Positions 10,418 through 25,674 of a stretch of DNA of 64,000 nucleotides are shown one piece after another. The DNA is taken from NCBI GenBank assembly GCA_000153385.1, contig CH672375.1:230352-294351 (forward strand), in the 5' to 3' direction. A program made the translations under genes and the position numbers. Position 1 is the first letter of the stretch. Each line of letters begins with the position of its first letter. The notes beneath the pieces are model-generated. The model was not told where the DNA came from, ran no database searches, and worked only from the letters and a program-made list of their open reading frames with translations. This stretch comes from Flavobacteria bacterium BBFL7 (lineage in GTDB: Bacteria; Bacteroidota; Bacteroidia; Flavobacteriales; Flavobacteriaceae).

Positions 10418-10778
10418 ACCAACGATTAAAACATCGATTAAAAGGGCTTTTACTACCAAAAATCTGTTAAATACGACCTTTAAACGTCAAAATATCTTAA
10501 AAATGTTGCAAGACAACATATTAAAGTATATGTTTGTCTCATCTTAAACAAGAAAATATTTCTTTTCAAGATATTTAGAAATGATAAATGCCCAGTAAAG
10601 AATCCCTACATTCTTACTGGGCATTACCTTTTATATAAATACCAAAACGGAATAGGCACAGAACTATTGATAATTGCGTAAGTATCATAGTTAGTTACCC
10701 TAGACATATTTGAATCTTGCTCAGGGACTCAAGTCCACTATGTAGATAACGCATTTACTACATAAGGATAAAGAGCGC
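10418..10778. other. intergenic region between convergent genes, with hairpins
   Basis: This 361-base gap holds a small hairpin (arms ATGTTG and CAACAT, 10503-10519), a strong terminator hairpin (10587-10625) and a cluster of inverted repeats (10649-10785, reaching into the stop of the next gene). No coding capacity is seen. Confidence 0.6.
10587..10625 (-). terminator. terminator hairpin at the end of the curli cluster, GTAGGG loop
   Basis: Arms 10587-10603 and 10610-10625 form a stem of about 16 bp with one bulged base. The loop is CCCTAC on the plus strand and GTAGGG on the minus strand, the same as in the stem-loops after the curlin genes. It sits between convergent genes and may also end the operon from the left, but the loop ties it to the curli transcript. 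Confidence 0.65.
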
Positions 10779-10785
10779 CTATTCC
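10649..10785 (-). other. possible structured 3' UTR element of the curli operon
   Basis: Outer arms GGAATAGGC (10649-10657) and GCCTATTCC (10777-10785) are perfect complements. They enclose a 10-bp stem with one bulge (10662-10672 with 10683-10692), a 4-bp stem with a tetraloop (10725-10736) and a 7-bp stem (10739-10745 with 10758-10764). On the minus strand the outer arm includes the TAG stop of the last gene. Whether the RNA folds this way is an inference. Confidence 0.4.
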
Positions 10786-12251
10786 CAATCTGGCATTATA
10801 GCATTTGTAAATAAATCTTCTCTAGTATCTGCTATAGTTAATTCTAGAGTTTGTATTATCGGTGCAGAGTTTCCATCATTATCTTGATTTTTACATATGA
10901 CTAAACCTTCTGTAGGAGAAAAACGTGCGTCCAGATCGTTAGTTCCTGCTGGTTTATTAAATGAAACTTCTAATTCTTGTAACGTATTTAAATTATATAC
11001 AAAAAGTCTGGAATCTAGTTGTCTATAAGCGATGTTTTCAAATCCAGAAACATCTCTAGAATAGAGTATCGTAGAATTATTTGCGCTCAAATCAATACTG
11101 CCCGCTGCACCTGGCACACCACTTAAAACAGTTTGAACGACCGCAGCTTGCATGTCTAGCACTAAAATCTCCACATTATAACCTGCAAAATCATTAGTTT
11201 TAACCGCTACTCGAGGTTCATTAACATCAACATCAGATATAATATTACCATTAGCGGTTTGATAAAATTGAGTCAATCCGGCTCCATTAGGTTGTATGGT
11301 ATATAGCTTATCTAATGATGGGTAATAAATTAAAGAACCGTTAGTAGCCCATGAAATATCTACTTCATCAAGGTTGAATCCAGCAACAGCTACAGTAGAT
11401 GTTACTTGCTGAACTTGTGTCCCGTCTAAATCCATTGTAAAAACATGTACTTGTGCGCCTACACTTCTTAGAAATGCAATTTTATTAGCCTGTCTATTTA
11501 CTCTAGGTCGCCAGCTATTAGTAGTCGTAGTGGTAAGCGCCACTTCTGTTCCATTCTCATCACTACTGTAAATAACATTATTGCCGTTCACCTTACGTAC
11601 ATATAGAAATCTATTGGTCGGAAAATCAGAAGTACTGAAAGAAAATAATGCACTATTAATTGTCTGGTTAATCCCATCGTTAGCCCTTACTTGCCATAAA
11701 TAAGTGGTCCCAAAATCTAGAGTCACGTCCAACATAGGCTCTGTAATATCTTCAAATACTTCTACCGTATTATCAGATGTGTTTCTCAGTTCTACTGTAA
11801 ACGTTAGAGCATCATCTTCAGGATCTGTTGCTAGCCATTCTAGGGTAACATTAGATGATACATCTACCTCATTATCTGCCGGAGAGACCAATATAGGTGT
11901 ATCTGGTGCTCTGTTATTTGCTGTTTCTATCTGTAATTCAAATACAATTTCTACCGTTTCATCTACATCGACAGTAGCACTTTCAAAATCTGTTAAGAAT
12001 CCATCCTTTTCTGCCTGTACAGAATATTGACCATTATCTAATTCAAATTCAAATAATCCATCAGCATCTGTAAAAACAGTATTCGTATTAGGATTAGTTG
12101 AAATTTTGACATTTTCTTGAGGTATAAAAGTCTCGGCAGCCACTACGCGACCTTTAAGAGTACCTTTACCATTTATTTGTAATTTATCTTCACTACATCC
12201 CGATACTAAAAGTAGGATGCTAATTCCAGCTATATATTGCAGTAATTTCAT
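10779..12251 (-). CDS. lipoprotein with carboxypeptidase-regulatory, FN3-like and TolB-like propeller domains, in the curli operon
   Basis: The 490-residue protein has a lipobox ending LLVSGC (Cys19). Residues about 30-105 form a carboxypeptidase-regulatory-like sandwich (GRVVAAETFIPQENVKIS, TDADGLFEFEL). Residues about 115-208 look like a fibronectin-III/cadherin-type domain (TPILVSPADNEVDVSSNVTLEW). Residues about 215-490 carry TolB/WD40-like propeller blades (RPRVNRQANKIAFLRS, ISWATNGSLIYYPS). It starts 16 bases after the csgG stop on the same strand, so it is probably cotranscribed with the curli secretion genes. No function is known to me for it. Possible roles are binding of the outer membrane, CsgG or fibres. 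Confidence 0.65.
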   Translation of the reverse strand: MKLLQYIAGISILLLVSGCSEDKLQINGKGTLKGRVVAAETFIPQENVKISTNPNTNTVFTDADGLFEFELDNGQYSVQAEKDGFLTDFESATVDVDETVEIVFELQIETANNRAPDTPILVSPADNEVDVSSNVTLEWLATDPEDDALTFTVELRNTSDNTVEVFEDITEPMLDVTLDFGTTYLWQVRANDGINQTINSALFSFSTSDFPTNRFLYVRKVNGNNVIYSSDENGTEVALTTTTTNSWRPRVNRQANKIAFLRSVGAQVHVFTMDLDGTQVQQVTSTVAVAGFNLDEVDISWATNGSLIYYPSLDKLYTIQPNGAGLTQFYQTANGNIISDVDVNEPRVAVKTNDFAGYNVEILVLDMQAAVVQTVLSGVPGAAGSIDLSANNSTILYSRDVSGFENIAYRQLDSRLFVYNLNTLQELEVSFNKPAGTNDLDARFSPTEGLVICKNQDNDGNSAPIIQTLELTIADTREDLFTNAIMPDWE

Positions 12252-12267
12252 GTTTTCTATCTTTTAA

Positions 12268-13782
12268 TTATGGGTTAGGGAAGTTTGAGTTATTACGCTT
12301 TCGCGAAAGCGTATCTCCAGCAACCTCTTGCTCTGCCTGAACTCTTAGTTTCATTTTTTCTATACGTCGTTGAGTACGACGGTATTTTCTCATTTTACGT
12401 TTTTCATCATTATCCTTTGCATCATTGCCGCCTATATATATATTAAGACCTAGTCCAAACTTAAGATAATGGTCATCTCGCTGACCAGCGACAACGTAAT
12501 CAAGATCATCTGATAAAACAGCGTTGTAATCTGCATATAACTTAACACCTACAGAAGGCGATACAGTGTACTCTAGACCAAAGCCTGCTTGCGCTTTAAT
12601 ATCGTTCTTATCAAATTGATTTGCGTGATTTAAACCTGCACCTCCATATACATAAGGTGTGAATTTATCATAAGGCAACATGGTTAAATGCACATTAAGC
12701 TCTGATGCAGCAAACTCTCGATTAAACAAGTCTGTATTTTTTAATCTGAATTTGTGTACCGAAGCATGTATACCTATATAAGGAGTAAAGTTATATTGCG
12801 CACCTAGTGTTGCAGCGTATTCATAGTATGCATTAGGATAATCTCCATTAATTAAGGTTCCACCTGCACCTGCATCTACTCGCCATTTACTACGTCTATT
12901 TATCATATTACGTTGATAAACATCTGTATTCTCTGCGATTGATTTTTCCTTTTTATAACTAGCTATCATCTGATCTGCGACAGGTCTTCCTCCTTTAGGG
13001 TACCATAATTGTGCATCGATCCCTTCAATTATCAATGCTTCAACAGCTTTTTCAATTGCTTCTTTAACAGCAAGCTGTCCTGGTTCATTTCTAGTGAATC
13101 CAGTCTCTGCTTCTAGTAACCTTTGAAAACTTACGTATCTAAATAAACTCGCATCTACAGCTTGAGAATAAATGGTTTTAGAGACATATACAGTTTTCAT
13201 TATTTGACCTGTTTTTGTGGAGACAGCTCTTAAGTATACAGTAACTCGATCCTGTCTATATTGTGCTGATCCGCCAGCACCAAAATATCTAGCCCCAGCT
13301 CCACCAGTTAAAACATTAGTGTCATAAGAAACTATTCCACCTTCAATAAGTACGCCCGCATAAAGTAATGGGTCTAGCTCTTTTACTTGTGTATTACTAC
13401 GTGCTGCATAATCTTTTCTAGTGTTGAGAATGATATTACGTTCTTGAAGTAAGTTTCCTAGATTTTCTCTTTCAATAGGTGTAAACCATTTTGAATCTTC
13501 TAGTGCTTTTACTAATATGGTCGTACCACCTTGTGTAACAGCATTGCTAAAGGTGCTTCCCGTTTCTGATTGTTTGAATTGACCTGTTTGGTCTTCAAAT
13601 TCATAGACACCTACTACGGCAGGTGCGCTAGGTTCTGGTAGAGCGATTAATCTCTTAGAGACTTCAGTCGCTTCTCCTATACGGGCTGGTTGAGTTCCCA
13701 TAGGTTGATTCATATATGCTCCACAAGCAGATAATAGCGAGGTAAGCATCATGAGAATCATGATGTTTTTGTAAGATTTCAT
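12268..13782 (-). CDS. csgG: curli secretion pore CsgG with C-terminal beta-barrel extension
   Basis: Residues 1-20 are a lipoprotein signal ending LSAC. Residues about 50-275 match CsgG closely: DSKWFTPIERENLGNLLQER, GGIVSYDTNVLTGGAGARYFG, QYRQDRVTVYLRAVSTKTGQ, FRYVSFQRLLEAE and TRNEP. CsgG forms the outer-membrane channel for curlin export. Around the constriction, Phe78 matches E. coli Phe56, Thr77 replaces Asn55, and no Tyr51 equivalent is seen. The protein has 504 residues against 277 in E. coli. The extra part is an OmpA-like eight-strand barrel (about 300-455) and a very basic helical tail (460-485). A palindromic repeat encodes TLSRKR near the C-terminus. The gene lies 17 bases after csgF. 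Confidence 0.92.
   Translation of the reverse strand: MKSYKNIMILMMLTSLLSACGAYMNQPMGTQPARIGEATEVSKRLIALPEPSAPAVVGVYEFEDQTGQFKQSETGSTFSNAVTQGGTTILVKALEDSKWFTPIERENLGNLLQERNIILNTRKDYAARSNTQVKELDPLLYAGVLIEGGIVSYDTNVLTGGAGARYFGAGGSAQYRQDRVTVYLRAVSTKTGQIMKTVYVSKTIYSQAVDASLFRYVSFQRLLEAETGFTRNEPGQLAVKEAIEKAVEALIIEGIDAQLWYPKGGRPVADQMIASYKKEKSIAENTDVYQRNMINRRSKWRVDAGAGGTLINGDYPNAYYEYAATLGAQYNFTPYIGIHASVHKFRLKNTDLFNREFAASELNVHLTMLPYDKFTPYVYGGAGLNHANQFDKNDIKAQAGFGLEYTVSPSVGVKLYADYNAVLSDDLDYVVAGQRDDHYLKFGLGLNIYIGGNDAKDNDEKRKMRKYRRTQRRIEKMKLRVQAEQEVAGDTLSRKRNNSNFPNP
12297..12310. repeat. palindromic repeat GCTTTCGCGAAAGC
   Basis: Perfect copy in the 3' end of csgG, encoding part of TLSRKR. Confidence 0.85.
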
Positions 13783-13799
13783 AATAGAGTTCTTTAGGC

Positions 13800-14219
13800 C
13801 TAATTATTAGGTATAATAATTTGGGTTTGATCTCCAGTATTGGTATCCAATAAATTAACCACTAATCCTTCTAAAGATTCTAATACTTCTACTTCATAAG
13901 AACCAATAGTAAAAACTCCTGGTGTTAGTTCTTCATCTCCTAATTGAAGATTTAAAATTTGACGAGAAAAACCGCTTAATAGCTGTCTATTTAATCCTTC
14001 AGTAAAGGCATCTAGTTCTGATGTATCGTCTATAGCTGATTCTGCTGGATCAGTAAATTTATTTTGTGCTTCAGCACTTTGTATAAGCCATTGGTAATTA
14101 AACGTATCACCTCCAAAGGCTGGATTAATAGGTTTATAAGTGAATTGTTGTGCGTTACACGCTGTATAAGCGAGAACTAAAAATAACAACGAGAGCAATG
14201 TTGTAGATTTTGTGAGCAT
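13800..14219 (-). CDS. csgF: curli assembly protein CsgF
   Basis: This 139-residue protein has a signal sequence (a cleavage site near CNAQ) followed by the CsgF signature: FTYKPINPAFGGDTFNYQWLIQSAEAQNKF matches FQFRNPNFGG...LLNSAQAQN of E. coli CsgF, which is the part that sits in the CsgG constriction. The C-terminal half (SYEVEVLESLEGLVVNLLDTNTG) also fits. CsgF leaves through CsgG and couples secretion to nucleation at the surface. The length is close to the 138 residues of E. coli CsgF. An AC cysteine near residue 21 could make it a lipoprotein, but an ordinary signal peptidase I site is equally possible. It lies 11 bases after csgE. Confidence 0.92.
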   Translation of the reverse strand: MLTKSTTLLSLLFLVLAYTACNAQQFTYKPINPAFGGDTFNYQWLIQSAEAQNKFTDPAESAIDDTSELDAFTEGLNRQLLSGFSRQILNLQLGDEELTPGVFTIGSYEVEVLESLEGLVVNLLDTNTGDQTQIIIPNN

Positions 14220-14230
14220 GATAAATTTAT

Positions 14231-14959
14231 TTAGTTAGATTTTTCTTTTTGAATTTGTAAAAACTTTTGAAAAACAGAGCGTATGGCATTATCTGCCATC
14301 TGTTTTAAATACTTCTTTTTAGGCTGTACAAAAAATTGATAAACAATTTCTCTACCTACGGTAACTTTAATAAGAGAACTTCTTCCTTGACCAAATTCCT
14401 CTTCTACGGTAACAATACGGTTACCATTAATTTTATATTTATGATATTCTCCATAGAAATAATCATAGAAGTCTCGAGCTGGTTTAGTTCTTGTTTTTTC
14501 TATGACAATACCTCTAATTTCTACACCATCATTTGAAACAATCTCTTTTTTCTCAAGTTGCAAAGAATTTTCTTTTAATACTTGGACTGCCTTACCTACT
14601 AATTTATTGTTCAAGTCGTAAACCAGTAACATGATGGTAATTTTTGAAGGACTATTAATATTAACTGTTGTTGTGGATAGAATCGCTTTAGTCTTAGCAT
14701 TTAAAACACCACTTCCTTCTTGCTTGTTTTTTGAAGTGTTATTAAGACTGTCTTTTTTAAATACAGTTAGTTCATATCTGATGCTGGCTGAAACATCAGT
14801 AAGGTTAGATGCTACACCTTGAATAGAAACATAATCTCCTTTTTGTTCTAAAAATAACTCACCACTTATTTCTTGATTATAATACGATTTTTGCTCTTGA
14901 GCTTGAGCCTGTATAATAAAACAAAGGAGTAATGCAATTATGTTTAGAGCAATTTTCAT
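14231..14959 (-). CDS. csgE: curli assembly protein CsgE with an N-terminal extra domain
   Basis: The protein has 242 residues, against 129 for E. coli CsgE. After a signal peptide (to about AQAQ, residue 20) comes a beta-rich domain (about 25-130), then the CsgE domain (about 143-242). The latter shows GIVIEKTRTKPARDFYDYFY, IVTVEEEFGQGRSSLIKVTVG and VYQFFVQPKKKYLKQMADNAI, matching GLLTDHTVS..GHDFYRAF and VIFQTFLFPLKRDFEK. CsgE caps the periplasmic side of CsgG and selects curlin. The N-terminal domain (GVLNAKTKAILSTTTVNI, ITIMLLVYDLNNKLVGKA) recalls the CsgH curlin chaperone; this is inference. It sits 6 bases after the CsgB-like gene. Confidence 0.88.
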   Translation of the reverse strand: MKIALNIIALLLCFIIQAQAQEQKSYYNQEISGELFLEQKGDYVSIQGVASNLTDVSASIRYELTVFKKDSLNNTSKNKQEGSGVLNAKTKAILSTTTVNINSPSKITIMLLVYDLNNKLVGKAVQVLKENSLQLEKKEIVSNDGVEIRGIVIEKTRTKPARDFYDYFYGEYHKYKINGNRIVTVEEEFGQGRSSLIKVTVGREIVYQFFVQPKKKYLKQMADNAIRSVFQKFLQIQKEKSN

Positions 14960-14965
14960 ATTAAA

Positions 14966-15475
14966 TTAAAAATTTATGACATAAACAGATCTACCATTTC
15001 CTGTCTGATTAATTTGCATATTTTCTGATATCGCATTTGATCCTGCCGAAATGGAGGTATTATAATTTCCATTTTGCACGATATTCAAATTATGACTTGC
15101 AGCTCCCATCGTACTATAATCATAAATTACATTTGAGTTTCCGATTTGAACAATATTTTGTCTAATACGATCTGCTGAATGATTGAGAGTTGTACTATTA
15201 AGCGTACCATTTTGATACAAGGATATCTGACTATCGTCTGATGCAACACTCACTATAGCACTATTACTATTACCAACTTGTTCGATAAAAACACTATTTT
15301 GATTTACGAATTGAGTTGTTGTATTACTGGTTGATGAATTTTGATCTGAAGCCAAATTCAGTTGTGCATTGGTCGTTTGCAAATTTGCTGTATTGATTAC
15401 TTGACTATCATCAACATAAGTCTGACCTAAGGCTGTAAATGTGGTAAAAACGAGTAAGAAAAGTATTTTTTTCAT
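14966..15475 (-). CDS. CsgB-like curlin-repeat protein (putative nucleator)
   Basis: This 169-residue protein has a signal peptide (MKKILFLLVFTTFTALGQ) and degenerate curlin repeats: NSVFIEQVGNSNSAIV, NIVQIGNSNVIY, NLNIVQNGNYNTSI and MQINQTGNGRS. Length and position between the large curlins and csgE match CsgB, the surface-bound nucleator. The repeat spacing is less regular than in the large paralogs. Like all curlins here it ends in Phe (VYVINF). It is separated from the last large curlin by 65 bases that contain a hairpin, which may lower expression of the downstream assembly genes relative to the curlins. Confidence 0.75.
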   Translation of the reverse strand: MKKILFLLVFTTFTALGQTYVDDSQVINTANLQTTNAQLNLASDQNSSTSNTTTQFVNQNSVFIEQVGNSNSAIVSVASDDSQISLYQNGTLNSTTLNHSADRIRQNIVQIGNSNVIYDYSTMGAASHNLNIVQNGNYNTSISAGSNAISENMQINQTGNGRSVYVINF

Positions 15476-15493
15476 AATGATAGTTTTAAATTA

Positions 15494-15523
15494 AACCGAA
15501 AAGCCCAATTGGGCCTTTCAGTT
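15494..15523 (-). terminator. hairpin between curlin A and the CsgB-like gene (attenuator-like)
   Basis: GAAA-A-GCCC (15498-15506) pairs with GGGC-C-TTTC (15511-15519) around an AATT loop, and AAC/GTT extend the stem. The tail after it has only a weak T-tract, so partial readthrough is likely. Confidence 0.5.
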
Positions 15524-15540
15524 CAAGCAATTAAGCAATT

Positions 15541-16815
15541 TTAAAAAGTGTGAGCTTTGGTTGCTGCTGTTCTTTGAGTTTGACGAGTCAAAGAAACATT
15601 AGCATTTCTTTGAGTCACAATAGCGGTATTACTACCTCCTGTACCTGCAGATGTTCCAAGGCTATTTTGATTAATAACTGATTGATGATTCATACCTAAT
15701 TGATCTACATCGGCAATATTTCCATTTGCCATTTGATTAATATATGAATCGTTATTCATTCCTCTTTGAATGGATAAAGCTTGGTTTCCTGAAACTTGAC
15801 CACCATTTTGTATAACAACTGATTCATTGAAAATCCCATATTGTTCTTGATTAGCAGAATGATTCTGTCCATCTTGTTCAATGTATGCTTCGTTTAAACC
15901 TCCTAATTGGTACTGCTCTGCATAATTATCTCCACCTGTAGATGAAGTGTTTTGATGTACCTCGGCAGTATTTAAAAGACCGTTTTGTTCTTGGAACGAA
16001 GAATTATCTGATCCATATTGCGTAGAATATGCATTATTGTAACCACCTGACTGTATTTGTTGAGAGAAAGCTCTTTCTGAAGTTACAGTAGCATCTCCTT
16101 GATTAGCCTCAGCATAATTATCACCGCCAAATGGCTGGTAATCACTATCTTGATTTTGAATAATTTCATTATCATCTCCATATTGAGTTCCTATGGCTGT
16201 ATGACCTGGAGTTTGATTTCCATCTGAAATTTGTGCTTGATAAGATCTATTTCCTATTCCATTTACAGCGTCATTATTTTGTATAATAGATGCCTCATTA
16301 TTATCAAATCTCTGCTGAATTTCAGCATCATTATCCTTACCATTTTGATCTACTAATGCAAGATTATCTTGTGCTTGTTGAGCTAAGTCAGCACCTTGTT
16401 GAACCAATGCAGTATTATCTAAACCTGTTTGAGTACCAAATACTTCATTCTTGTCTCCTTGTTGGAATACTGAGAAGTTATTTCCTGCACCATCTTGTTT
16501 GATTTCAGAATAGTTTTCTTCACCACTTAAGGCTGATACATTTCCCCATTGTAGGACGTCAACTGAATTACGATTACTGGCATCTGTTCCAGTTTGTTCT
16601 ATAAATGAAGCATTAGCAGTTCCCTGTTGTTGAACTAATGCATCACTACCGACTCCTTTTTGATCGATATTTGAATAATTACCTCCGACTGTAGCACCAG
16701 CCGTTGGAGATATTTGTTGTACAGGCGCCACTATTGCTTGTCTTGTCTGTGATGTTTGAGCGAATGCGATTCCACCTATGAGCAGTGATAATGCGCTTAT
16801 TATTGAGCTTTTCAT
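15541..16815 (-). CDS. large curlin-repeat amyloid subunit A (CsgA-like)
   Basis: The 424-residue secreted protein has a signal peptide ending near IAFAQ (residue 20). About 28 strand-like units of the form N-x(5)-Q-x-G follow, such as NYSEIKQDG, NTALVQQGA and NEAYIEQDG. E. coli CsgA has 151 residues and ten such strands. The C-terminal tail (TQRNANVSLTRQTQR..AHTF) is conserved among all four paralogs. This copy is the most divergent of the four. Its leader has TTCTAAATAT just before the ATG, as do the other three. It should form extracellular amyloid fibres after export through CsgG. Unlike the others, it is not followed by the TAAACC stem-loop. Confidence 0.85.
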   Translation of the reverse strand: MKSSIISALSLLIGGIAFAQTSQTRQAIVAPVQQISPTAGATVGGNYSNIDQKGVGSDALVQQQGTANASFIEQTGTDASNRNSVDVLQWGNVSALSGEENYSEIKQDGAGNNFSVFQQGDKNEVFGTQTGLDNTALVQQGADLAQQAQDNLALVDQNGKDNDAEIQQRFDNNEASIIQNNDAVNGIGNRSYQAQISDGNQTPGHTAIGTQYGDDNEIIQNQDSDYQPFGGDNYAEANQGDATVTSERAFSQQIQSGGYNNAYSTQYGSDNSSFQEQNGLLNTAEVHQNTSSTGGDNYAEQYQLGGLNEAYIEQDGQNHSANQEQYGIFNESVVIQNGGQVSGNQALSIQRGMNNDSYINQMANGNIADVDQLGMNHQSVINQNSLGTSAGTGGSNTAIVTQRNANVSLTRQTQRTAATKAHTF

Positions 16816-16840
16816 ATGTAATATTTAGAAATTATAAATA

Positions 16841-16875
16841 AAGGATGGTAATGGCATATTACAATTACCATCCTT
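16841..16875 (-). terminator. terminator hairpin after curlin B
   Basis: A perfect 12-bp stem (16841-16852 with 16864-16875) encloses an 11-nt loop. It lies between curlin B and curlin A. Confidence 0.65.
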
Positions 16876-16889
16876 AAGTACTTATTTAA

Positions 16890-16914
16890 ATTAAACCTTC
16901 CCTACTGGTTTAAT
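16890..16914 (-). promoter_or_regulatory. conserved stem-loop after curlin B (loop AGTAGGGAA)
   Basis: Arms ATTAAACC and GGTTTAAT are perfect, with a 9-nt loop, TTCCCTACT on the plus strand. It starts 2 bases after the curlin B stop. Related elements follow curlins C and D. Confidence 0.65.
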
Positions 16915-16916
16915 GA

Positions 16917-18197
16917 TTAGAACGTGTGTCTTTTAGACGCAGCAATTCTTCTAGTTTGTGGAGTTAATGCTACGTTAGCATTTCTCTGGATAACTGTTGC
17001 ATTATTGTAACCACCAGCTGCAGCAGCCGCTCCAGTTGTAGGGTTATTTTGATTAATTAAACTAGTTTGACCATCACCTGTTTGATCTACCATAGACATG
17101 TTACCATGAGATTGTTGGTTGATTACAGAGTTGTTTAAAGAACCATCTTGGATAGATGTTGCCATGTTACCAGCATCCTGACCATAACGTTGCTTCACAC
17201 TAGAAAAGTTATCTTGACCATATTGCTCTTGGTTAACAGAATTACCATTACCATTTTGATCAGAACGAGCTTCATTACGATCTCCATCTTGGAACTGCTC
17301 AACTAAGTTATTTCCTCCAGAAGAAATACCACCAGTATTTTGCTCAACAACAGCTTTATTATCTGTTCCTAACTGCTCTTGGTAAGAAGTATCACTTGAA
17401 AGGTATTGTGTAGCATAAGCTTCGTTAGTCGCACCAGACTGAACTTGTTGTGCAAATGCTCCAGTAGCTTCAGTAGATCCATCACCTTGCTGAATTTCAG
17501 CATGATTTCCTCCACCTAACGCAGGAGAACCGCTATCTTGAATTTGTATAGCTTCGTTATCATCACCCCATTGCTCACCTATAGCAACTTGACCTGCAGA
17601 TTGGTTCGGGTTTGAAACTTGATCTTGGTAAGAACGGTTACCTACACCAGCTATCTGATCGTTTCTTTGAAGAATACTTGCTTCATTATCATCATAACGT
17701 TGTTGAATTTCAGCATCGTTTCCTTTACCATCTTGATCAACTATGGCTAAATTATTTTGCGCTTGTTGTGGAGTATTTGCTCCTTGTTGCACAAGTGCCA
17801 CATTATCTAGACCATTTTGTAAACCTAAGATTTCATTTTCATCACCTTGTTGAGTAGCCATAAACATATTCCCAGCACCATCTTGCTTAATATCAGAATA
17901 GTTAAGGTGTCCACTTATACTAGGTTGTACATTACCCCATTGTAAAACATCTACTGAGTTACGATTTGCTACGTCAGTACCTGTTTGCTCGATAAAAGAT
18001 GCATTTGCAGTTCCTTGTTGTTGAACCATTGCATCACTACCTGTCCCTTTTTGGTCGATATCAGAATAGTTTCCACCTACAGTGGCTGAAGCTGTCGGAG
18101 ATGACTGCTGTACGATCGGTGTGATTGTCTGCGGAGTTTGTGCAAAGACAAAACCTCCTATTGCAAGTGCCGCGGCACTTAGAATTACTCTTTTCAT
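16917..18197 (-). CDS. large curlin-repeat amyloid subunit B (CsgA-like)
   Basis: The 426-residue secreted protein has signal peptide MKRVILSAAALAIGGFVFAQ and about 28 curlin-type strand units (NYSDIDQKG, NASFIEQTG, NEAIQIQDS, NEARSDQNG and others). The ending VIQRNANVALTPQTRR..RHTF is shared with the paralogs. It is nearly identical to curlin D in the N-terminal half, even at synonymous DNA positions, and diverges in places toward the C-terminus. This points to recent duplication or gene conversion. The leader carries TTCTAAATAT. Downstream come the TAAACC stem-loop and a terminator hairpin. It is probably a major fibre subunit, but the division of labour among the four is unknown. Confidence 0.87.
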   Translation of the reverse strand: MKRVILSAAALAIGGFVFAQTPQTITPIVQQSSPTASATVGGNYSDIDQKGTGSDAMVQQQGTANASFIEQTGTDVANRNSVDVLQWGNVQPSISGHLNYSDIKQDGAGNMFMATQQGDENEILGLQNGLDNVALVQQGANTPQQAQNNLAIVDQDGKGNDAEIQQRYDDNEASILQRNDQIAGVGNRSYQDQVSNPNQSAGQVAIGEQWGDDNEAIQIQDSGSPALGGGNHAEIQQGDGSTEATGAFAQQVQSGATNEAYATQYLSSDTSYQEQLGTDNKAVVEQNTGGISSGGNNLVEQFQDGDRNEARSDQNGNGNSVNQEQYGQDNFSSVKQRYGQDAGNMATSIQDGSLNNSVINQQSHGNMSMVDQTGDGQTSLINQNNPTTGAAAAAGGYNNATVIQRNANVALTPQTRRIAASKRHTF

Positions 18198-18253
18198 AAT
18201 TAAAATATTTAGAATTAAATTGATTATGAGAAATTAATTTGATTGAAAAGTTA

Positions 18254-18277
18254 ACTATGATTCTCAAAATTCATAGT
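18254..18277 (-). terminator. terminator-like hairpin of the orphan unit
   Basis: ACTATGA (18254-18260) pairs with TCATAGT (18271-18277) around a 10-nt loop containing TCTCAAA. The same TCTCAAA occurs in the loop of the terminator after curlin D. Confidence 0.45.
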
Positions 18278-18292
18278 CCGCTTTGATTCCTT

Positions 18293-18315
18293 ATAAACCT
18301 TCCCTACAGATTTAT
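18293..18315 (-). promoter_or_regulatory. orphan copy of the curlin 3' stem-loop (loop TGTAGGGAA)
   Basis: Arms ATAAACC and GATTTAT pair with one mismatch around a 9-nt loop, TTCCCTACA on the plus strand. No reading frame precedes it on the minus strand. Confidence 0.55.
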
Positions 18316-18412
18316 TGAATTGGTGTCTATCTGATGCATAGCTCTTAAAGATTGAACATAAAGAGCTACATATAAATAGATTCAGTTTTAGTAATAAACA
18401 TTTAAGTTAATA

Positions 18413-18444
18413 ATAGGCTAAGGCTTTTATTTTCCTTAGCCTAT
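18413..18444 (-). terminator. terminator hairpin after curlin C
   Basis: An 11-bp stem (18413-18423 with 18434-18444; ATAGGCTAAGG type) encloses a T-rich 10-nt loop. Confidence 0.6.
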
Positions 18445-18456
18445 ATTAGATTACTA

Positions 18457-18479
18457 TTAAACCGTTCTTACTGGTTTAA
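18457..18479 (-). promoter_or_regulatory. conserved stem-loop after curlin C (loop AGTAAGAAC)
   Basis: Arms TTAAACC and GGTTTAA are perfect around a 9-nt loop, and the stem begins 2 bases after the curlin C stop. The loop is the most divergent of the set. Confidence 0.6.
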
Positions 18480-18481
18480 GA

Positions 18482-19762
18482 TTAAAAATGTCTTCTAGCA
18501 GCTGCTGCTCTTTGAGTTTGAGGAGTTAAAGAAACATTTGCGTTTCTTTGGATAACTGTAGCATTATTGTAACCATTTCCATTCGGTGCTGAACTTGAAG
18601 CTAAGTTTTGATTAACTACACTCATTTGACCGTCACCAGTTTGATCAACAATAGCACTGTTACCTCTTGCTTTTTGCTCAATCATACTGTGATTTAAACT
18701 ACCATCTTGAATAGATAATGCTACATTAGCATCTCCTGGATTAACACCTCCACGTTGTTCTATAGAAGAGAAGTTTTGATCACCATATTGCTCTTGGTAC
18801 GCCTCATTATTAGAACCATTTTGCTTAGAACGAGCTTCGTTATCTGTACCATCTTGATATTGCTCTGCATACAAGCTAGAACCACTAGTTGGGTTATCTG
18901 CTTGAGAAGCCACAGCTTTATTACCACTTCCTATTTGTTCTTGGAATAATGTATTATCAGTTCCTTTCTGAGATGCATAAGCTTCGTTTAACTCTCCAGT
19001 CTGTACTTGTTGAGCAAAAGCATTTGTTGCATCATCAGCTACATCTCCTTGGTCAGCTTGCGCATAGTTACCAGCACCAGTTGGAGCTAAACCACCTTCC
19101 TGAATTTGAACCATAGTGTTACCATCTCCGTACTGTGTACCTATTGCAGTATGTCCAGAACTCATATTAGGATTTGCAATTTGCTCTTGATAAGATCTGT
19201 TTCCTACACCTGCAGCTACATCGTTACGTTGAGTGATACTTGCTTCACTATTATCATAACGCTGTTGTACCTCAGCAAAGTTATCTCTACCATCTTGATC
19301 AACTAAAGAAAGGTTACTTTGTGCATGTTGAGGAGTATTAGCTCCTTGTTGTACAATCGCAGTATTATCTAGACCCATTTGAGTACCATATACTTCATTC
19401 AAATCACCTTGTTGAGTAACCATAAAAGCATTACCAGCACCATCTTGCTTAATATCAGAATAGTTTAACTGTCCACTAATACTAGGTTGTATGTTACCCC
19501 ATTGTAATACGTCTACCATATTTCGGTTTCCGGCATCTGTTCCCGTCTGCTCAATAAATGAAGCATTAGATGTTCCTTGTTGTTGTACTACCGCGTCACT
19601 TCCTACACCTTTTTGATCAATGTCAGAATAGTTACCACCTACAGTAGCGGTTGGTACTACCGGAGAAGGTTGTTGTCCAGGATTTACTATTACCTGTGGA
19701 GATTGTGCAAAAGCTAGCCCACATATAGTTAAGGCGGCTGCACTTAAAATTACTCTTTTCAT
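18482..19762 (-). CDS. large curlin-repeat amyloid subunit C (CsgA-like)
   Basis: The 426-residue protein has signal peptide MKRVILSAAALTICGLAFAQ with an unusual cysteine (Cys14) inside the hydrophobic core. About 28 curlin-type units follow (NTAIVQQGA, NLSLVDQDG, NEAYASQKG, NEAYQEQYG). The C-terminal block VIQRNANVSLTPQTQR..RRHF is conserved but lacks the Thr of the HTF ending. It resembles curlins B and D in the first third and differs more afterwards. The leader again carries TTCTAAATAT. No good promoter is seen between the curlin D terminator and this start, so transcription likely comes by readthrough from the D promoter. Confidence 0.87.
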   Translation of the reverse strand: MKRVILSAAALTICGLAFAQSPQVIVNPGQQPSPVVPTATVGGNYSDIDQKGVGSDAVVQQQGTSNASFIEQTGTDAGNRNMVDVLQWGNIQPSISGQLNYSDIKQDGAGNAFMVTQQGDLNEVYGTQMGLDNTAIVQQGANTPQHAQSNLSLVDQDGRDNFAEVQQRYDNSEASITQRNDVAAGVGNRSYQEQIANPNMSSGHTAIGTQYGDGNTMVQIQEGGLAPTGAGNYAQADQGDVADDATNAFAQQVQTGELNEAYASQKGTDNTLFQEQIGSGNKAVASQADNPTSGSSLYAEQYQDGTDNEARSKQNGSNNEAYQEQYGDQNFSSIEQRGGVNPGDANVALSIQDGSLNHSMIEQKARGNSAIVDQTGDGQMSVVNQNLASSSAPNGNGYNNATVIQRNANVSLTPQTQRAAAARRHF

Positions 19763-19815
19763 AATTTAGATATTTAGAATTTAATTGGATTGATTTTGAG
19801 ATTGATTTGGTTTTA

Positions 19816-19853
19816 AAAGTTAGCTAAGGCTCTCAAATCCCTTAGCTAACTTT
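19816..19853 (-). terminator. terminator hairpin after curlin D
   Basis: A perfect 14-bp stem (19816-19829 with 19840-19853) encloses a 10-nt loop, and TTTT follows on the minus strand. Confidence 0.7.
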
Positions 19854-19863
19854 ATCATCACAT

Positions 19864-19884
19864 TAAACCGTCCCTACGGGTTTA
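19864..19884 (-). promoter_or_regulatory. conserved stem-loop after curlin D (loop CGTAGGGAC)
   Basis: Arms TAAACC and GGTTTA are perfect, with plus-strand loop GTCCCTACG. The stem begins 8 bases after the curlin D stop. Confidence 0.65.
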
Positions 19885-19892
19885 TGAAATTA

Positions 19893-21173
19893 TTAAAATG
19901 TATGTCTCTTTGTTGCTACAGCTCTTCTCGTTTGAGGCGTTAATGCAACGTTTGCGTTTCTTTGAATTACAGTTGCAGTATTTTGACCAGAAGTTAACGC
20001 TGGTTGTCCTGCTAATGGAGAGTTTTGGTTAATTAAACTTCTCTGCCCATTACCTGTTTGATCAACCATAGCCTCATTGCCATTTGCACGTTGATTAATT
20101 ACAGAATGGTGGTCAGCTCCATCTTGGATAGATGTAGCCATGTTACCTACTGCTTGACCATGACCTTGACTTACTCGAGAATAGTTATCCATACCGTACT
20201 GTTCTTGGTTAACTTCATTATTGTTACCATTTTGAGTTGAACGAGCCTCATTACGATCACCATCTTGGAATTGCTCTACCAGATTATCTCCACCACTTAA
20301 AGAACCAGCAGTATTTTGATTTACTACAGCTTTGTTATCTGTACCTAATTGCTCTTGGTAAGATTCATCACTTGATAAGAATTGTGTAGCATATGCTTCA
20401 TTAGTAGCACCTGACTGAACTTGTTGTGCAAAAGCGCCGGTAGCATCCATAGAAGCGTCTCCTTGCTTAATTTCAGCATGGTTTCCACCACCTAATGCAG
20501 GAGAACCACTATCTTGAATTTGTATAGCTTCGTTATTATCACCCCATTGCTCACCTATAGCAACTTGTCCTGCAGATTGGTTCGGGTTTGAAACTTGATC
20601 CTGGTAAGAGCGATTACCTACACCAGCTATCTGATCGTTTCTTTGAAGAATACTTGCTTCATTGTCATCATAACGTTGTTGAACTTCAGCATAGTTATCT
20701 TTTCCATCTTGATCTAAAACAGCTAAATTATTTTGCGCTTGTTGAGGAGTATTTGCTCCTTGTTGTACTAGAGCTTCATTATCTAGTCCATTTTGTAAAC
20801 CTAAGATTTCATTTTCGTCACCTTGTTGAGTGGCCATAAACATATTCCCAGCACCATCTTGCTTAATATCAGAATAGTTAAGATGTCCACTTATACTAGG
20901 TTGTACATTACCCCATTGTAAAACATCTACTGAGTTACGATTTGCTACGTCAGTACCTGTTTGCTCGATAAAAGATGCATTTGCTGTTCCTTGTTGTTGA
21001 ACCATTGCATCACTACCAGTTCCTTTTTGATCAATGTCTGAATAGTTTCCACCTACAGTGGCTGAAGCTGTCGGAGATGACTGCTGTACGATCGGTGTGA
21101 TTGTCTGCGGAGTTTGTGCAAAGACAAAACCTCCTATTGCAAGTGCCGCGGCACTCATGATTACTCTTTTCAT
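19893..21173 (-). CDS. large curlin-repeat amyloid subunit D (CsgA-like), first gene of the cluster
   Basis: The 426-residue protein starts at the ATG of MKRVIMSAAALAIGGFVFAQ. A longer frame (to 21260) is rejected because its 29 extra residues would hide the signal peptide and the paralogs all start here. About 28 curlin-type units follow (NEALVQQGA, NLAVLDQDG, NEARSTQNG), then the conserved tail VIQRNANVALTPQTRR..RHTF. It is very close to curlin B. The TTCTAAATAT leader lies just upstream, and a good promoter lies at 21345-21377, giving a 5' leader of about 165 nt. It is probably the first gene of the curli transcript. Confidence 0.88.
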   Translation of the reverse strand: MKRVIMSAAALAIGGFVFAQTPQTITPIVQQSSPTASATVGGNYSDIDQKGTGSDAMVQQQGTANASFIEQTGTDVANRNSVDVLQWGNVQPSISGHLNYSDIKQDGAGNMFMATQQGDENEILGLQNGLDNEALVQQGANTPQQAQNNLAVLDQDGKDNYAEVQQRYDDNEASILQRNDQIAGVGNRSYQDQVSNPNQSAGQVAIGEQWGDNNEAIQIQDSGSPALGGGNHAEIKQGDASMDATGAFAQQVQSGATNEAYATQFLSSDESYQEQLGTDNKAVVNQNTAGSLSGGDNLVEQFQDGDRNEARSTQNGNNNEVNQEQYGMDNYSRVSQGHGQAVGNMATSIQDGADHHSVINQRANGNEAMVDQTGNGQRSLINQNSPLAGQPALTSGQNTATVIQRNANVALTPQTRRAVATKRHTF

Positions 21174-21344
21174 AATTAAATATTTAGAATTAATATAAAC
21201 ACATTTGCGAGCGACGATAATAGCCTTACATGCTATAATCATTTGCGAACCAAGGTTCATTAATCTAAGGGGTTAATTATGACAGGAGATAGGGATATCT
21301 GCCAATTGTTTTTAAAAAACTTGAGCCGTTTTTTATTTACAGTT

Positions 21345-21377
21345 CAAATATAACTGCGTTTTTTAGAATCTCACAAA
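21345..21377 (-). promoter_or_regulatory. promoter of the curlin D / curli cluster
   Basis: TTTG (21374-21377) and TATATTTG (21345-21352) on the minus strand are 21 bases apart. The -7 box is identical to that of ffs. The start would be near 21339. Confidence 0.65.
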
Positions 21378-21509
21378 CAGCAAAATTTAAAATGAATATA
21401 ATTTCTTAAAAAAAGTAAAATTTTTGCAGCAAAATCAAACCATATAAGCAGATGTTAATTTTATGTTAATGTTAATATATGTAAGACTATTCTTCAAATA
21501 ATAAAAAAT

Positions 21510-21523
21510 CGAAAACGTTTTCG
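21510..21523. promoter_or_regulatory. perfect palindrome CGAAAACGTTTTCG upstream of the curli promoter
   Basis: A 14-bp perfect palindrome of the kind bound by LacI-type regulators (central CG). It is about 135 bases upstream of the -7/-33 region. Confidence 0.45.
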
Positions 21524-21602
21524 TTTAACTAGTACCGTCAAATATTCAACAGATTGACTTTTTTAACAATCTTTATCCCACATCAATCAAGTACTAGTAT
21601 CA

Positions 21603-21618
21603 CACTTAACGTTAAGTG
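21603..21618. promoter_or_regulatory. perfect palindrome CACTTAACGTTAAGTG upstream of the curli promoter
   Basis: A 16-bp perfect palindrome, unlike any other in the window. It suits a dimeric regulator, but no family can be named. Confidence 0.45.
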
Positions 21619-21682
21619 AATAGCGAGTCATTAATTATTATGAATGTTATAAAAAAGTCAATAAATTTATCTTATAAACACA

Positions 21683-21719
21683 AAAAAGCACTTGTTATTG
21701 AGAACAACAAATGCTTTTT
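21683..21719 (-). terminator. htpG terminator
   Basis: AAAAAGCA and TTGTT (21683-21696) pair with AACAA and TGCTTTTT (21706-21719), with one mismatch and a 9-nt loop, followed by T residues on the minus strand. Confidence 0.7.
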
Positions 21720-21740
21720 AATAAATCGAGATGAGTGTAA

Positions 21741-23958: not shown

Positions 23959-25674
23959 ATGAAACTTTATAAACCATTACTAATTTTATTGATACTATTA
24001 CAAAGTATTTTTTCATGGTCTCAAGTCAACCATGCGACCAACAATTATTTTCAAATATCACCTCGCATAGGTTATGATTTTCCATCATACCACAATAACA
24101 CGCCTTACATAAATTACAATGGTGGTCTTGAAGCTGGAATAAGCGTTGATTATTATTGGAACTGGATAGGTGTAGGTATAGATGTAGATTACATTAAGAA
24201 CAGTCCCGAAAGCATTTACCCTACAGATGGACTCATTGATTTTGACGGTTCTGCCTTTAATTCATTTAATGTGACAGAGGATGGAATTACCCGACTTTTC
24301 TATGGGATTGGTCCTAATTTTCAATACCGTAATGCGAGTAGAAACTTCAGTGCCGAGTTCAATTCTCGTGTAGGACTTGCATCCATAAAAGGCGGACGTG
24401 TATCTCATGAAGGTTCTACTGCTAATAGTACAGATGTTCCATTAAACTTTCATGCTGGATATGACGTGGGAAGTGCCTTGACCTTTAAGTTACAAACTAG
24501 ATTAAATTACTTTTTCAACCCAAATTGGGGAATCCATGCTGGTGCTTATTATATGAGGCATCTTAATGTAACCGAGTCTATCGAAAGTGGCGTCTCTACT
24601 GGATATCATGGATTTAATGATGATCAAGGAGCATTATTTTTATCACAACGTTCTTATAGACAACGAGAAGAGCCATGTGATTGTGACATTTCTTCAGTAG
24701 GAATTTTTGCTGGAGTTACATTTAAGCTCAATAAACATGATAAAGAAGAATGTCAAGTTTGCGATAAGTATAATTTAACTGTAATAGCTCGCGATAAATT
24801 TACCAAAGAACTATTACCTGATACTGAGGTCGTTCTTAAAGATACAGACGGAAATATAGTTCAAACAGGAACTTCAAACTCCTATGGTGCAGTTGTTTTT
24901 AACGACATTAAAAAAGATGACTATACTATAGAAGGAAAATTATATGATGTAAATCTAGAGGGAACTACAGCAGTAAAAAATGAATTCAAGGCAAACGAAA
25001 CTCTCCAAAAAGAAATGGTTTACAGTGATCTTAACTTTATTCTTAAAGGAAATGCAGTAGTATGTAATACAACAACAGCGCTAGATGGAGTCTCTGTAAT
25101 TTTAAATAATCTTACCGATGCGGAGCAAAAAAATACGATCACAAATATTCAAGGAGAATTTATTTTCAATGTAAAGCAAAAAGCTACCTATTCTCTACGT
25201 GGTAAAAAAGCAAACTACTTCTCACAAACAGAAACGATTTCTACAGAAAATTATGACCGTAGCACTACTCTATTTGTAAAATTAGAAGTATGTCTAGAAG
25301 AGGCAGACTGTGGTAAAGCAATCGCTCTTAAAAACATCCTATATGATTTAGACAAGTACTATATACGAGCAGATGCTGAACCTGAATTGAATAGACTTGT
25401 ACAATTTATGAAGGACAATCCTGGAGTGCGTATTGAGATTTCCTCTCATACAGATTCTAGAGGTTCAAACGCCTATAACAAAACACTTTCTCAAAACCGT
25501 GCTAGTGCCGCTAGAGATTATATCGCTTCTCAGGGAATAGATGCTAATCGTGTAGTGGGAATAGGCTATGGAGAAACCAGACTTTTAAACCGCTGTGCAG
25601 ACGGTATTGAGTGCAGCGCTGCTGAACATCAAATCAATCGTAGAACAGAGATGAAAGTAATCTGTCCAAAATAA
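23959..25674 (+). CDS. OmpA-family outer membrane protein with carboxypeptidase-regulatory-like domains
   Basis: The 571-residue protein has a signal peptide (ending near FSWSQ, residue 22). A beta-barrel-like region (about 25-265) rich in aromatic and glycine residues follows. Two carboxypeptidase-regulatory-like sandwiches come next (about 272-350, DTEVVLKDTDGNIVQTG; and 355-440, LDGVSVILNNLTD), then an OmpA peptidoglycan-binding domain (about 450-571, with ISSHTDSRGSNAYNKTLSQNRASAARDYI). It should tie the outer membrane to the cell wall. The middle domains are a common Bacteroidetes addition. A hairpin follows at 25692-25717. Confidence 0.85.
   Translation: MKLYKPLLILLILLQSIFSWSQVNHATNNYFQISPRIGYDFPSYHNNTPYINYNGGLEAGISVDYYWNWIGVGIDVDYIKNSPESIYPTDGLIDFDGSAFNSFNVTEDGITRLFYGIGPNFQYRNASRNFSAEFNSRVGLASIKGGRVSHEGSTANSTDVPLNFHAGYDVGSALTFKLQTRLNYFFNPNWGIHAGAYYMRHLNVTESIESGVSTGYHGFNDDQGALFLSQRSYRQREEPCDCDISSVGIFAGVTFKLNKHDKEECQVCDKYNLTVIARDKFTKELLPDTEVVLKDTDGNIVQTGTSNSYGAVVFNDIKKDDYTIEGKLYDVNLEGTTAVKNEFKANETLQKEMVYSDLNFILKGNAVVCNTTTALDGVSVILNNLTDAEQKNTITNIQGEFIFNVKQKATYSLRGKKANYFSQTETISTENYDRSTTLFVKLEVCLEEADCGKAIALKNILYDLDKYYIRADAEPELNRLVQFMKDNPGVRIEISSHTDSRGSNAYNKTLSQNRASAARDYIASQGIDANRVVGIGYGETRLLNRCADGIECSAAEHQINRRTEMKVICPK

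Follow-up and report, generated by a model that had tools for sequence, protein, structure and literature searches.

The curli system encoded by csgBAC/csgDEFG of Escherichia coli includes CsgG, CsgF, CsgE, and a curlin with five repeats. CsgC and CsgH are chaperones of such systems (PMC4838910, PMC5135000). In the accessible sections of PMC4838910, CsgH is defined by two distant cysteines, and CsgH subfamilies are reported in Bacteroidetes; the domain itself was thus already known there. Long curlins of Bacteroidota, among them the degenerate class of Sediminicola, have many repeats with insertions and occur in several copies per genome (PMC10192328, PMC3521004), the accessible text of PMC10192328 giving 4–62 repeats and as many as 30 copies per genome. 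In this study, a 64,000-nucleotide stretch of the genome of Flavobacteria bacterium BBFL7 (contig CH672375.1, positions 230,352 to 294,351; hereafter, the window) was analysed, in which nine adjoining genes make up a curli locus. Like the E. coli system, this locus encodes CsgG, CsgF, and CsgE domains and curlin repeats. Unlike E. coli, it has four curlins of approximately 14 repeats each, a CsgE with a chaperone-like domain, a longer CsgG with a probable barrel, and an extra lipoprotein. Neither csgC nor csgD was recognised among the window open reading frames (ORFs) between 8 and 26 kb, where no profile search was aimed at them. What is new is the rebuilt export machinery together with a putative recoding site in relatives, while the size of the curlins is ordinary and their number is uncommon. 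Searches of the open-access literature, not all of which were directed at each of these features and which left subscription journals and supplements out of scope, gave no description of the fused CsgE, the barrel of CsgG, the lipoprotein, or the recoding.

The nine genes all lie on the minus strand and are given below in the order of transcription, with lengths in amino acids (aa).

19893–21173, minus strand: curlin A1, 426 aa, probable signal peptide, Curlin_rpt 63.3 bits
18482–19762, minus strand: curlin A2, 426 aa, 28 strands in the AlphaFold2 model, Curlin_rpt 80.2 bits
16917–18197, minus strand: curlin A3, 426 aa, Curlin_rpt 50.3 bits
15541–16815, minus strand: curlin A4, 424 aa, Curlin_rpt 76.8 bits
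14966–15475, minus strand: CsgB-like short curlin, probable nucleator, 169 aa, Curlin_rpt 16.9 bits (under the cut-off of 20.7)
14231–14959, minus strand: csgE, CsgC/CsgH-type domain and CsgE domain, NF041112 35.1 bits, Pfam CsgE 52.4 bits
13800–14219, minus strand: csgF, 139 aa, Pfam CsgF 134.5 bits
12268–13782, minus strand: csgG, lipoprotein with a probable C-terminal barrel and a charged tail, 504 aa, Pfam CsgG 216.3 bits
10779–12251, minus strand: ninth gene, TolB-like propeller lipoprotein, 490 aa, PF13620 39.9 bits (cut-off 32.3)

The ORF of A1 also extends to an upstream ATG at 21260 (455 aa); the ATG at 21173 aligns with the starts of the paralogs and gives 426 aa. The Pfam cut-offs were passed by CsgE and CsgF, and by CsgG with a score far above its cut-off of 20.8. 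From csgB onward the genes are separated by 6–17 bases, and the curlin genes by 101–284 bases. When the whole 3.1-Mb genome was scanned for curlin repeats and CsgG, a single CsgG was found, and all nine curlin-repeat matches fell in the present locus, with no other curlin locus. The window CsgG was 94–96% identical to those of two Nonlabens ulvanivorans assemblies, which makes Nonlabens the probable genus, and csgE was present in 15 of the 22 other Nonlabens genomes searched. Relatives were represented by 79 named loci, which are the best of 551 confirmed places and hence close relatives, and by a phylum sample of 296 genomes, 29 of them with csgE (the window's own included), which provided 30 stretches besides the window. 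The order curlin(s)-B-E-F-G-lipoprotein was conserved in most relatives. The initial annotation of this DNA, made from the letters and their ORFs, had described csgG, csgF, csgE, and a CsgB-like gene after four tandem curlin genes and had assigned them to a Bacteroidetes type VIII system with long subunits. The ORFs and Pfam families agree with this gene list, and the assignment is borne out by the ORFs, the family matches, and the loci of relatives; its eight genes were right, while the extra domain of CsgE, the CsgG barrel, and the ninth gene had been passed over. We have good confidence in reading these genes as a Bacteroidota-type curli (type VIII) locus from a Nonlabens-like species, a judgement that extends to the mechanism proposed below. 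The locus is probably functional.

CsgE is a fusion. Its residues 148–240 match Pfam CsgE, and residues 35–115 match the NCBIfam CsgH model NF041112. In the predicted structure, a seven-strand domain (residues 31–129) is followed by a low-confidence linker (134–145) and then by the CsgE part. When the N-terminal domain was compared with the PDB using Foldseek, CsgH (2N59) ranked first (E-value 1.2e-5; template modelling score by target, 0.65), and CsgC (2XSK) ranked eighth. In a profile search of the PDB, CsgE matched 2NA4. Sixty fused proteins (that of the window and 59 of the 70 eligible named ones) were scanned at a threshold of E ≤ 0.01, and 52 of them matched the CsgH model and 17 a CsgC model. 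The domain thus has in common with the CsgH and CsgC chaperones (PMC4838910, PMC5135000, as far as their accessible parts describe them) the predicted seven-strand fold, the top PDB match, and the profile match in 52 of 60 proteins; it differs in being fused to CsgE, in the lack of the cysteine pair, and in being doubled in three Olleya loci. Whether the Bacteroidetes members of the CsgH family are fused as well is not stated in the accessible part of PMC4838910. The net charge was −25 to −30 for the curlins, +3 for the chaperone-like domain, and +8 for the CsgE domain; these opposite charges are in line with the electrostatic model presented in the accessible part of PMC4838910. The N-terminal domain of CsgE probably works like CsgH.

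This reading was weighed against the possibility that the domain is a generic immunoglobulin-like sandwich serving as a spacer or as a module docking to peptidoglycan or CsgG, and not an amyloid chaperone. Several results tell against the chaperone reading. The NF041112 score exceeds its cut-off of 35 by a bare margin. Foldseek ranks 2–7 are held by other, mostly larger or unrelated proteins with E-values of 1.8e-5 to 4.5e-5, so that the margin of CsgH is small, and the many unrelated enzymes with similar E-values in this list speak for a generic fold. In the PDB profile search with CsgE, CsgC appeared at an E-value of 0.3, and CsgH was absent from the matches. The mature domain has no counterpart of the CsgH cysteine pair, the sole cysteine of CsgE (C13) lying in the signal peptide, which favours the generic domain as well; since the pair is absent, we label the domain CsgC/CsgH-type and place it outside the CsgH definition given in the accessible part of PMC4838910. 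The same position of CsgE is also occupied by other domains: among 47 CsgE proteins of the wider sample, 24 matched the CsgH model, and nine matched a LysM model instead, indicating that this slot can be used for anchoring. A generic sandwich is nevertheless unlikely in our estimate, because the top PDB fold match is CsgH and that at rank 8 is CsgC, both small curli chaperones, because the CsgH model is matched by such a large share of the fused proteins, and because of the arrangement of the domain in relatives. Free-standing ORFs resembling it lie near csg genes in two Bacteroidota loci (L071 and L073) whose CsgE is without the domain, and two tandem CsgH-type domains are present in the CsgE of three of the four Olleya loci (L123:8402-9589, L136:3296-4486, and L138:8360-9547; 395–396 aa).

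In several loci of the phylum sample, L069, L077, and L081 among them, an N-terminal LysM-like domain on CsgE replaces the CsgH-type domain. The fused, split, doubled, and domain-swapped forms of CsgE across relatives offer ready-made comparisons. The question of how an amyloid is kept soluble until it is outside the cell has medical relevance too, and the natural fusion of an inhibitor-like domain with an export adaptor points to a possible coupling of these steps, in a single protein on which it can be tested. Should CsgE form a nonamer, as it does in E. coli, the inhibitor domains would form a ring under the pore.

In six of the 79 named loci (L149, L156, L159, L166, L171, and L176), the frame of the CsgH-type half differs from that of the CsgE half. 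csgE was found in 72 of the 299 Flavobacterium genomes searched; it was split in 34 of them (L207–L240), fused in 31 that were read as DNA, and judged fused from a single open frame in seven. The split site was exactly A10 followed by G in all 34 split genes, with an identical frame change in each. The 34 comprised 32 different junction sequences, and the flanks had diverged (mean pairwise identity of 66% over the 40 nucleotides upstream and 51% over the 60 nucleotides downstream). In frame 0, a stop codon followed within four codons of the tract in 33 of 34. The CsgE half had no ATG, GTG, or TTG before its core in 17 of 34 cases and no clear signal-like segment: its highest 12-residue hydropathy was 0.2–1.9, as compared to 1.8–3.3 for the start of frame 0, by an untrained measure whose ranges touch. 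Separate translation of the CsgE half is therefore disfavoured, and this half probably reaches the periplasm only within the fusion.

The conserved A10 fits programmed slippage, which would give both a free chaperone-like domain and the fusion. The heptamer of ribosomal frameshifting is A_AAA_AAG; as A10 is longer than this, slippage of RNA polymerase is favoured over ribosomal frameshifting. For dnaX with A10, RNA polymerase slippage has been argued and two products have been inferred (PMC3711429, accessible part). The tract is the same as in Flavobacterium csgE, where it parts a chaperone-like domain from an adaptor; the accessible main text of PMC3711429 mentions neither "curli" nor "CsgE". 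The site would, if this is true, represent programmed recoding in an amyloid secretion system. The window csgE has six A at the place of the tract and, by eye, no slippery site in phase, and is a plain fused form.

The frame change might alternatively reflect phase variation by replication slippage, or decay. Homopolymers are classic switch tracts, some fused relatives hold an in-frame A9–A11 at the same place, and L152, which is a sister of L149/L207 on the tree, has an in-frame A11, which leaves room for phase variation. Switching would, however, predict mixed tract lengths, whereas exactly A10 and one frame direction were found in all 34. Besides, no A-run of 10 or more was present in a control set of 276 other mechanically called ORFs with a minimum length of 150 aa (296 kb from 18 Flavobacterium loci, counting overlapping ORFs), in which 153 runs of seven, 37 of eight, and two of nine were counted. 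Both halves also remain open, and six of the 34 split genomes are single-contig assemblies. Phase variation or decay thus appears improbable. The tree of CsgE domains, built from few columns, implies seven changes between split and fused forms, at least two of them forced, and does not settle the number of origins; the split L240 sits among fused rows, and one of the nine rows in the tract group, L206, has an A-run of uncertain location relative to the junction. On balance, we lean towards the view that in flavobacterial curli amyloid inhibition is physically tied to secretion, each CsgE bringing a CsgC/CsgH-type inhibitor with it, and that in a large share of Flavobacterium a single gene gives both the free and the fused inhibitor, with slippage at A10 setting their ratio.

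The export pore also carries an addition. The first part of CsgG matched the solved E. coli-type pore in a PDB profile search (E-value 9.4e-84). Its C-terminal part is a probable outer-membrane barrel, judging from matches to Pfam OMP_b-brl at E ≤ 0.01 in 10 of 14 aligned CsgG sequences (best, 5.3e-11). CsgG was at least 440 aa long in 77 of the 79 named loci, the remaining two being fragmented, and in all 28 of the 30 phylum-sample loci that showed csgG. The ninth gene product combines a carboxypeptidase-regulatory-like domain, an FnIII-like part, and a TolB-like propeller, and TolB structures were matched by profile with an E-value of about 1e-6. This lipoprotein gene was found in 78 of the 79 named loci, the exception being a 7-kb contig. 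In the loci where both positions were determined, its start was offset by −52 to +161 bases from the csgG end. In the phylum sample, 26 of 30 loci gave a lipoprotein profile match, 15 with at least 480 aa and 11 short. Most of the short forms of distant loci, which are without the propeller, match mainly the regulatory-like domain; this domain type is common in Bacteroidota, which makes their kinship less sure. Both this linked lipoprotein and the barrel on CsgG are candidate additional components of the Bacteroidota curli machine.

All four curlins pass the cut-off of Pfam Curlin_rpt (20.7), with scores of 50.3–80.2 bits; the curlin profile search that the initial annotation had called for thus matched the four proteins, and their lengths (426, 426, 426, and 424 aa) are the 424–426 residues given there. 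That annotation had counted about 28 N-x(5)-Q-x-G units per protein. The number stands for strands, i.e. approximately 14 two-strand repeats, while the motif as written fits about half of them: strict N-x5-Q-x-G occurs 12–15 times per curlin and [NS]-x5-Q 28–30 times. When core glutamine positions were chosen by hand from columns invariant, or in one case nearly so, among 21 Nonlabens curlins, 28 were common to the four curlins, all of them Q in A2; their spacing was 11 residues in 17 of 27 intervals and 4–9 residues longer in the remainder. An AlphaFold2 model of A2 (alignment of the 21 Nonlabens curlins) had 28 strands, with a mean predicted local distance difference test score of 77.5 and a predicted template modelling score of 0.79. 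The structure prediction proposed earlier for each subunit was thus made for A2, and the model is consistent with a stacked solenoid of about 14 layers, with no significant PDB match.

The subunits had also been called oversized, a description that does not hold. By motif count, the 79 named loci contained 102 curlins with a minimum length of 200 aa; their median length was 430.5 aa (range, 205–834), and 58 were at least 424 aa long, so that the window curlins are average in length. Their length and number also lie inside the published range of long Bacteroidota curlins, as far as the accessible parts of those papers give it, and subunit size was ruled out as a novelty on the basis of the relatives' lengths and the range in PMC10192328. 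In Winogradskyella L135 and L143, curlins of 779–834 aa and 400–411 aa follow the lipoprotein gene, on the other strand, instead of preceding csgB.

Four curlins per locus are uncommon among close relatives: by motif count, the 79 named loci had one copy in 64 cases, two in nine, three in four, and four in two (L100 and L103, both Nonlabens). The copies probably arose by duplication. Retention purely for dosage, through recent tandem amplification of subunits with equal roles, is conceivable yet less probable than a history involving some differentiation; it is in keeping with the one to four curlin ORFs counted in the 14 Nonlabens-type loci whose array was visible (broken copies included in one) and with the near-identity of the N-terminal halves of A1 and A3. 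Identity between these two genes was 89–98% up to alignment column 720 and 67–82% beyond it, whereas A3 and its L021 ortholog were 84–94% identical throughout and 89–94% in the C-terminal half, contrary to what dosage alone would lead one to expect. The three measured pairings of A2 or A4 with A1 or A3 likewise gave 54–83% identity. Identity to the L021 ortholog was 78–96% for A1 and, by 120-nucleotide window, 78–94% for A4. The corresponding pair of L021 paralogs showed the same step, with 82% identity over columns 1–120, 93–100% up to 720, and 74–82% thereafter. The A1/A3 pattern fits what is expected of exchange within the genome that homogenises the N-terminal halves, the C-terminal halves having been inherited as distinct. 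The N-terminal excess of A1–A3 identity over ortholog identity is small (89–98% vs. 84–96%), a point against exchange, whose case therefore rests on the step at 720 nucleotides. Homogenised N-terminal halves beside distinct C-terminal halves argue against dosage alone, although they are no proof of differing roles; the distinct C-terminal halves would fit subunits with differing ends or faces.

The gap following each curlin gene contains predicted RNA hairpins more stable than those of shuffled sequence, and a promoter-like site lies upstream of A1.

21345–21377, minus strand: promoter-like site, tentative, TTTG-N-TATATTTG, 172 bp upstream of the A1 start
19763–19892, minus strand: A1–A2 gap with RNA hairpin, −25.9 kcal/mol, z −3.06, 1 of 200 shuffles as low
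18198–18481, minus strand: A2–A3 gap with RNA hairpins, −56.4 kcal/mol, z −3.18, 0 of 200 shuffles as low
16816–16916, minus strand: A3–A4 gap with RNA hairpin, −25.8 kcal/mol, z −4.10, 0 of 200 shuffles as low
15476–15540, minus strand: A4–csgB gap with RNA hairpin, −24.2 kcal/mol, z −6.09, 0 of 200 shuffles as low

The site is of the TTTG-N-TATATTTG type, which we take to be the Bacteroidota promoter pattern, and is the sole minus-strand match to TTTG-N17-23-TANNTTTG within 10501–21740 (11.2 kb). A scan in the style of sigma-70 was uninformative (40 sites vs. 46.2 expected by shuffling).

Based on these results, we propose the following mechanism. The nine genes would form one operon, in which the gap hairpins may act as mRNA ends or stabilisers, leading to curlin being made in excess of the machinery. 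A signal peptide would take each curlin across the inner membrane, where the chaperone-like domain fused to CsgE would hold it unfolded, the inhibitor and the gate adaptor arriving together. The curlin would then traverse the CsgG pore, fold outside into a solenoid of roughly 14 layers, and stack end to end with others on the CsgB-like seed. The extra outer-membrane barrel on every CsgG subunit may hold CsgG, and the propeller lipoprotein may be a further partner. In A1 and A3, exchange would maintain the similarity of the N-terminal halves, the C-terminal halves staying distinct.

Besides the points already raised on the CsgE domain and on exchange, some results are unfavourable to parts of this scheme. 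No match of the A2 model below 0.001 was found by Foldseek in the PDB (best E-value, 0.022), several parallel beta-helix proteins being among the weak best matches. The identification of the CsgB-like protein rests on its position, which is kept in relatives, on its size, and on weak similarity (NCBIfam CsgA, E-value 1.7e-9, far under the model cut-off). The window CsgG scored 25.2 bits against OMP_b-brl (residues ca. 297–439), under the cut-off of 28.7. A terminator scan gave 10 sites vs. 5.5 expected, none of them in the four hairpin gaps, and the Bacteroidota promoter pattern had six matches across the window vs. 4.25 by chance, which is no excess. The small fold-match margin of the CsgE domain and these unsupportive scans make the proposed scheme and the view of coupled inhibition with A10 slippage slightly weaker and the generic-domain alternative slightly stronger.

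In the draft assembly of N. ulvanivorans JCM 19298 (L140), the first curlin gene and csgG are fragmented, which may be due to sequencing error or decay. Beyond htpG, a gene at 23959–25674 encodes regulatory-like domains and an OmpA domain with partial similarity to PorE; this OmpA-family gene was set aside as a member of the system, as it adjoins htpG only in the close relatives L021 and L022.

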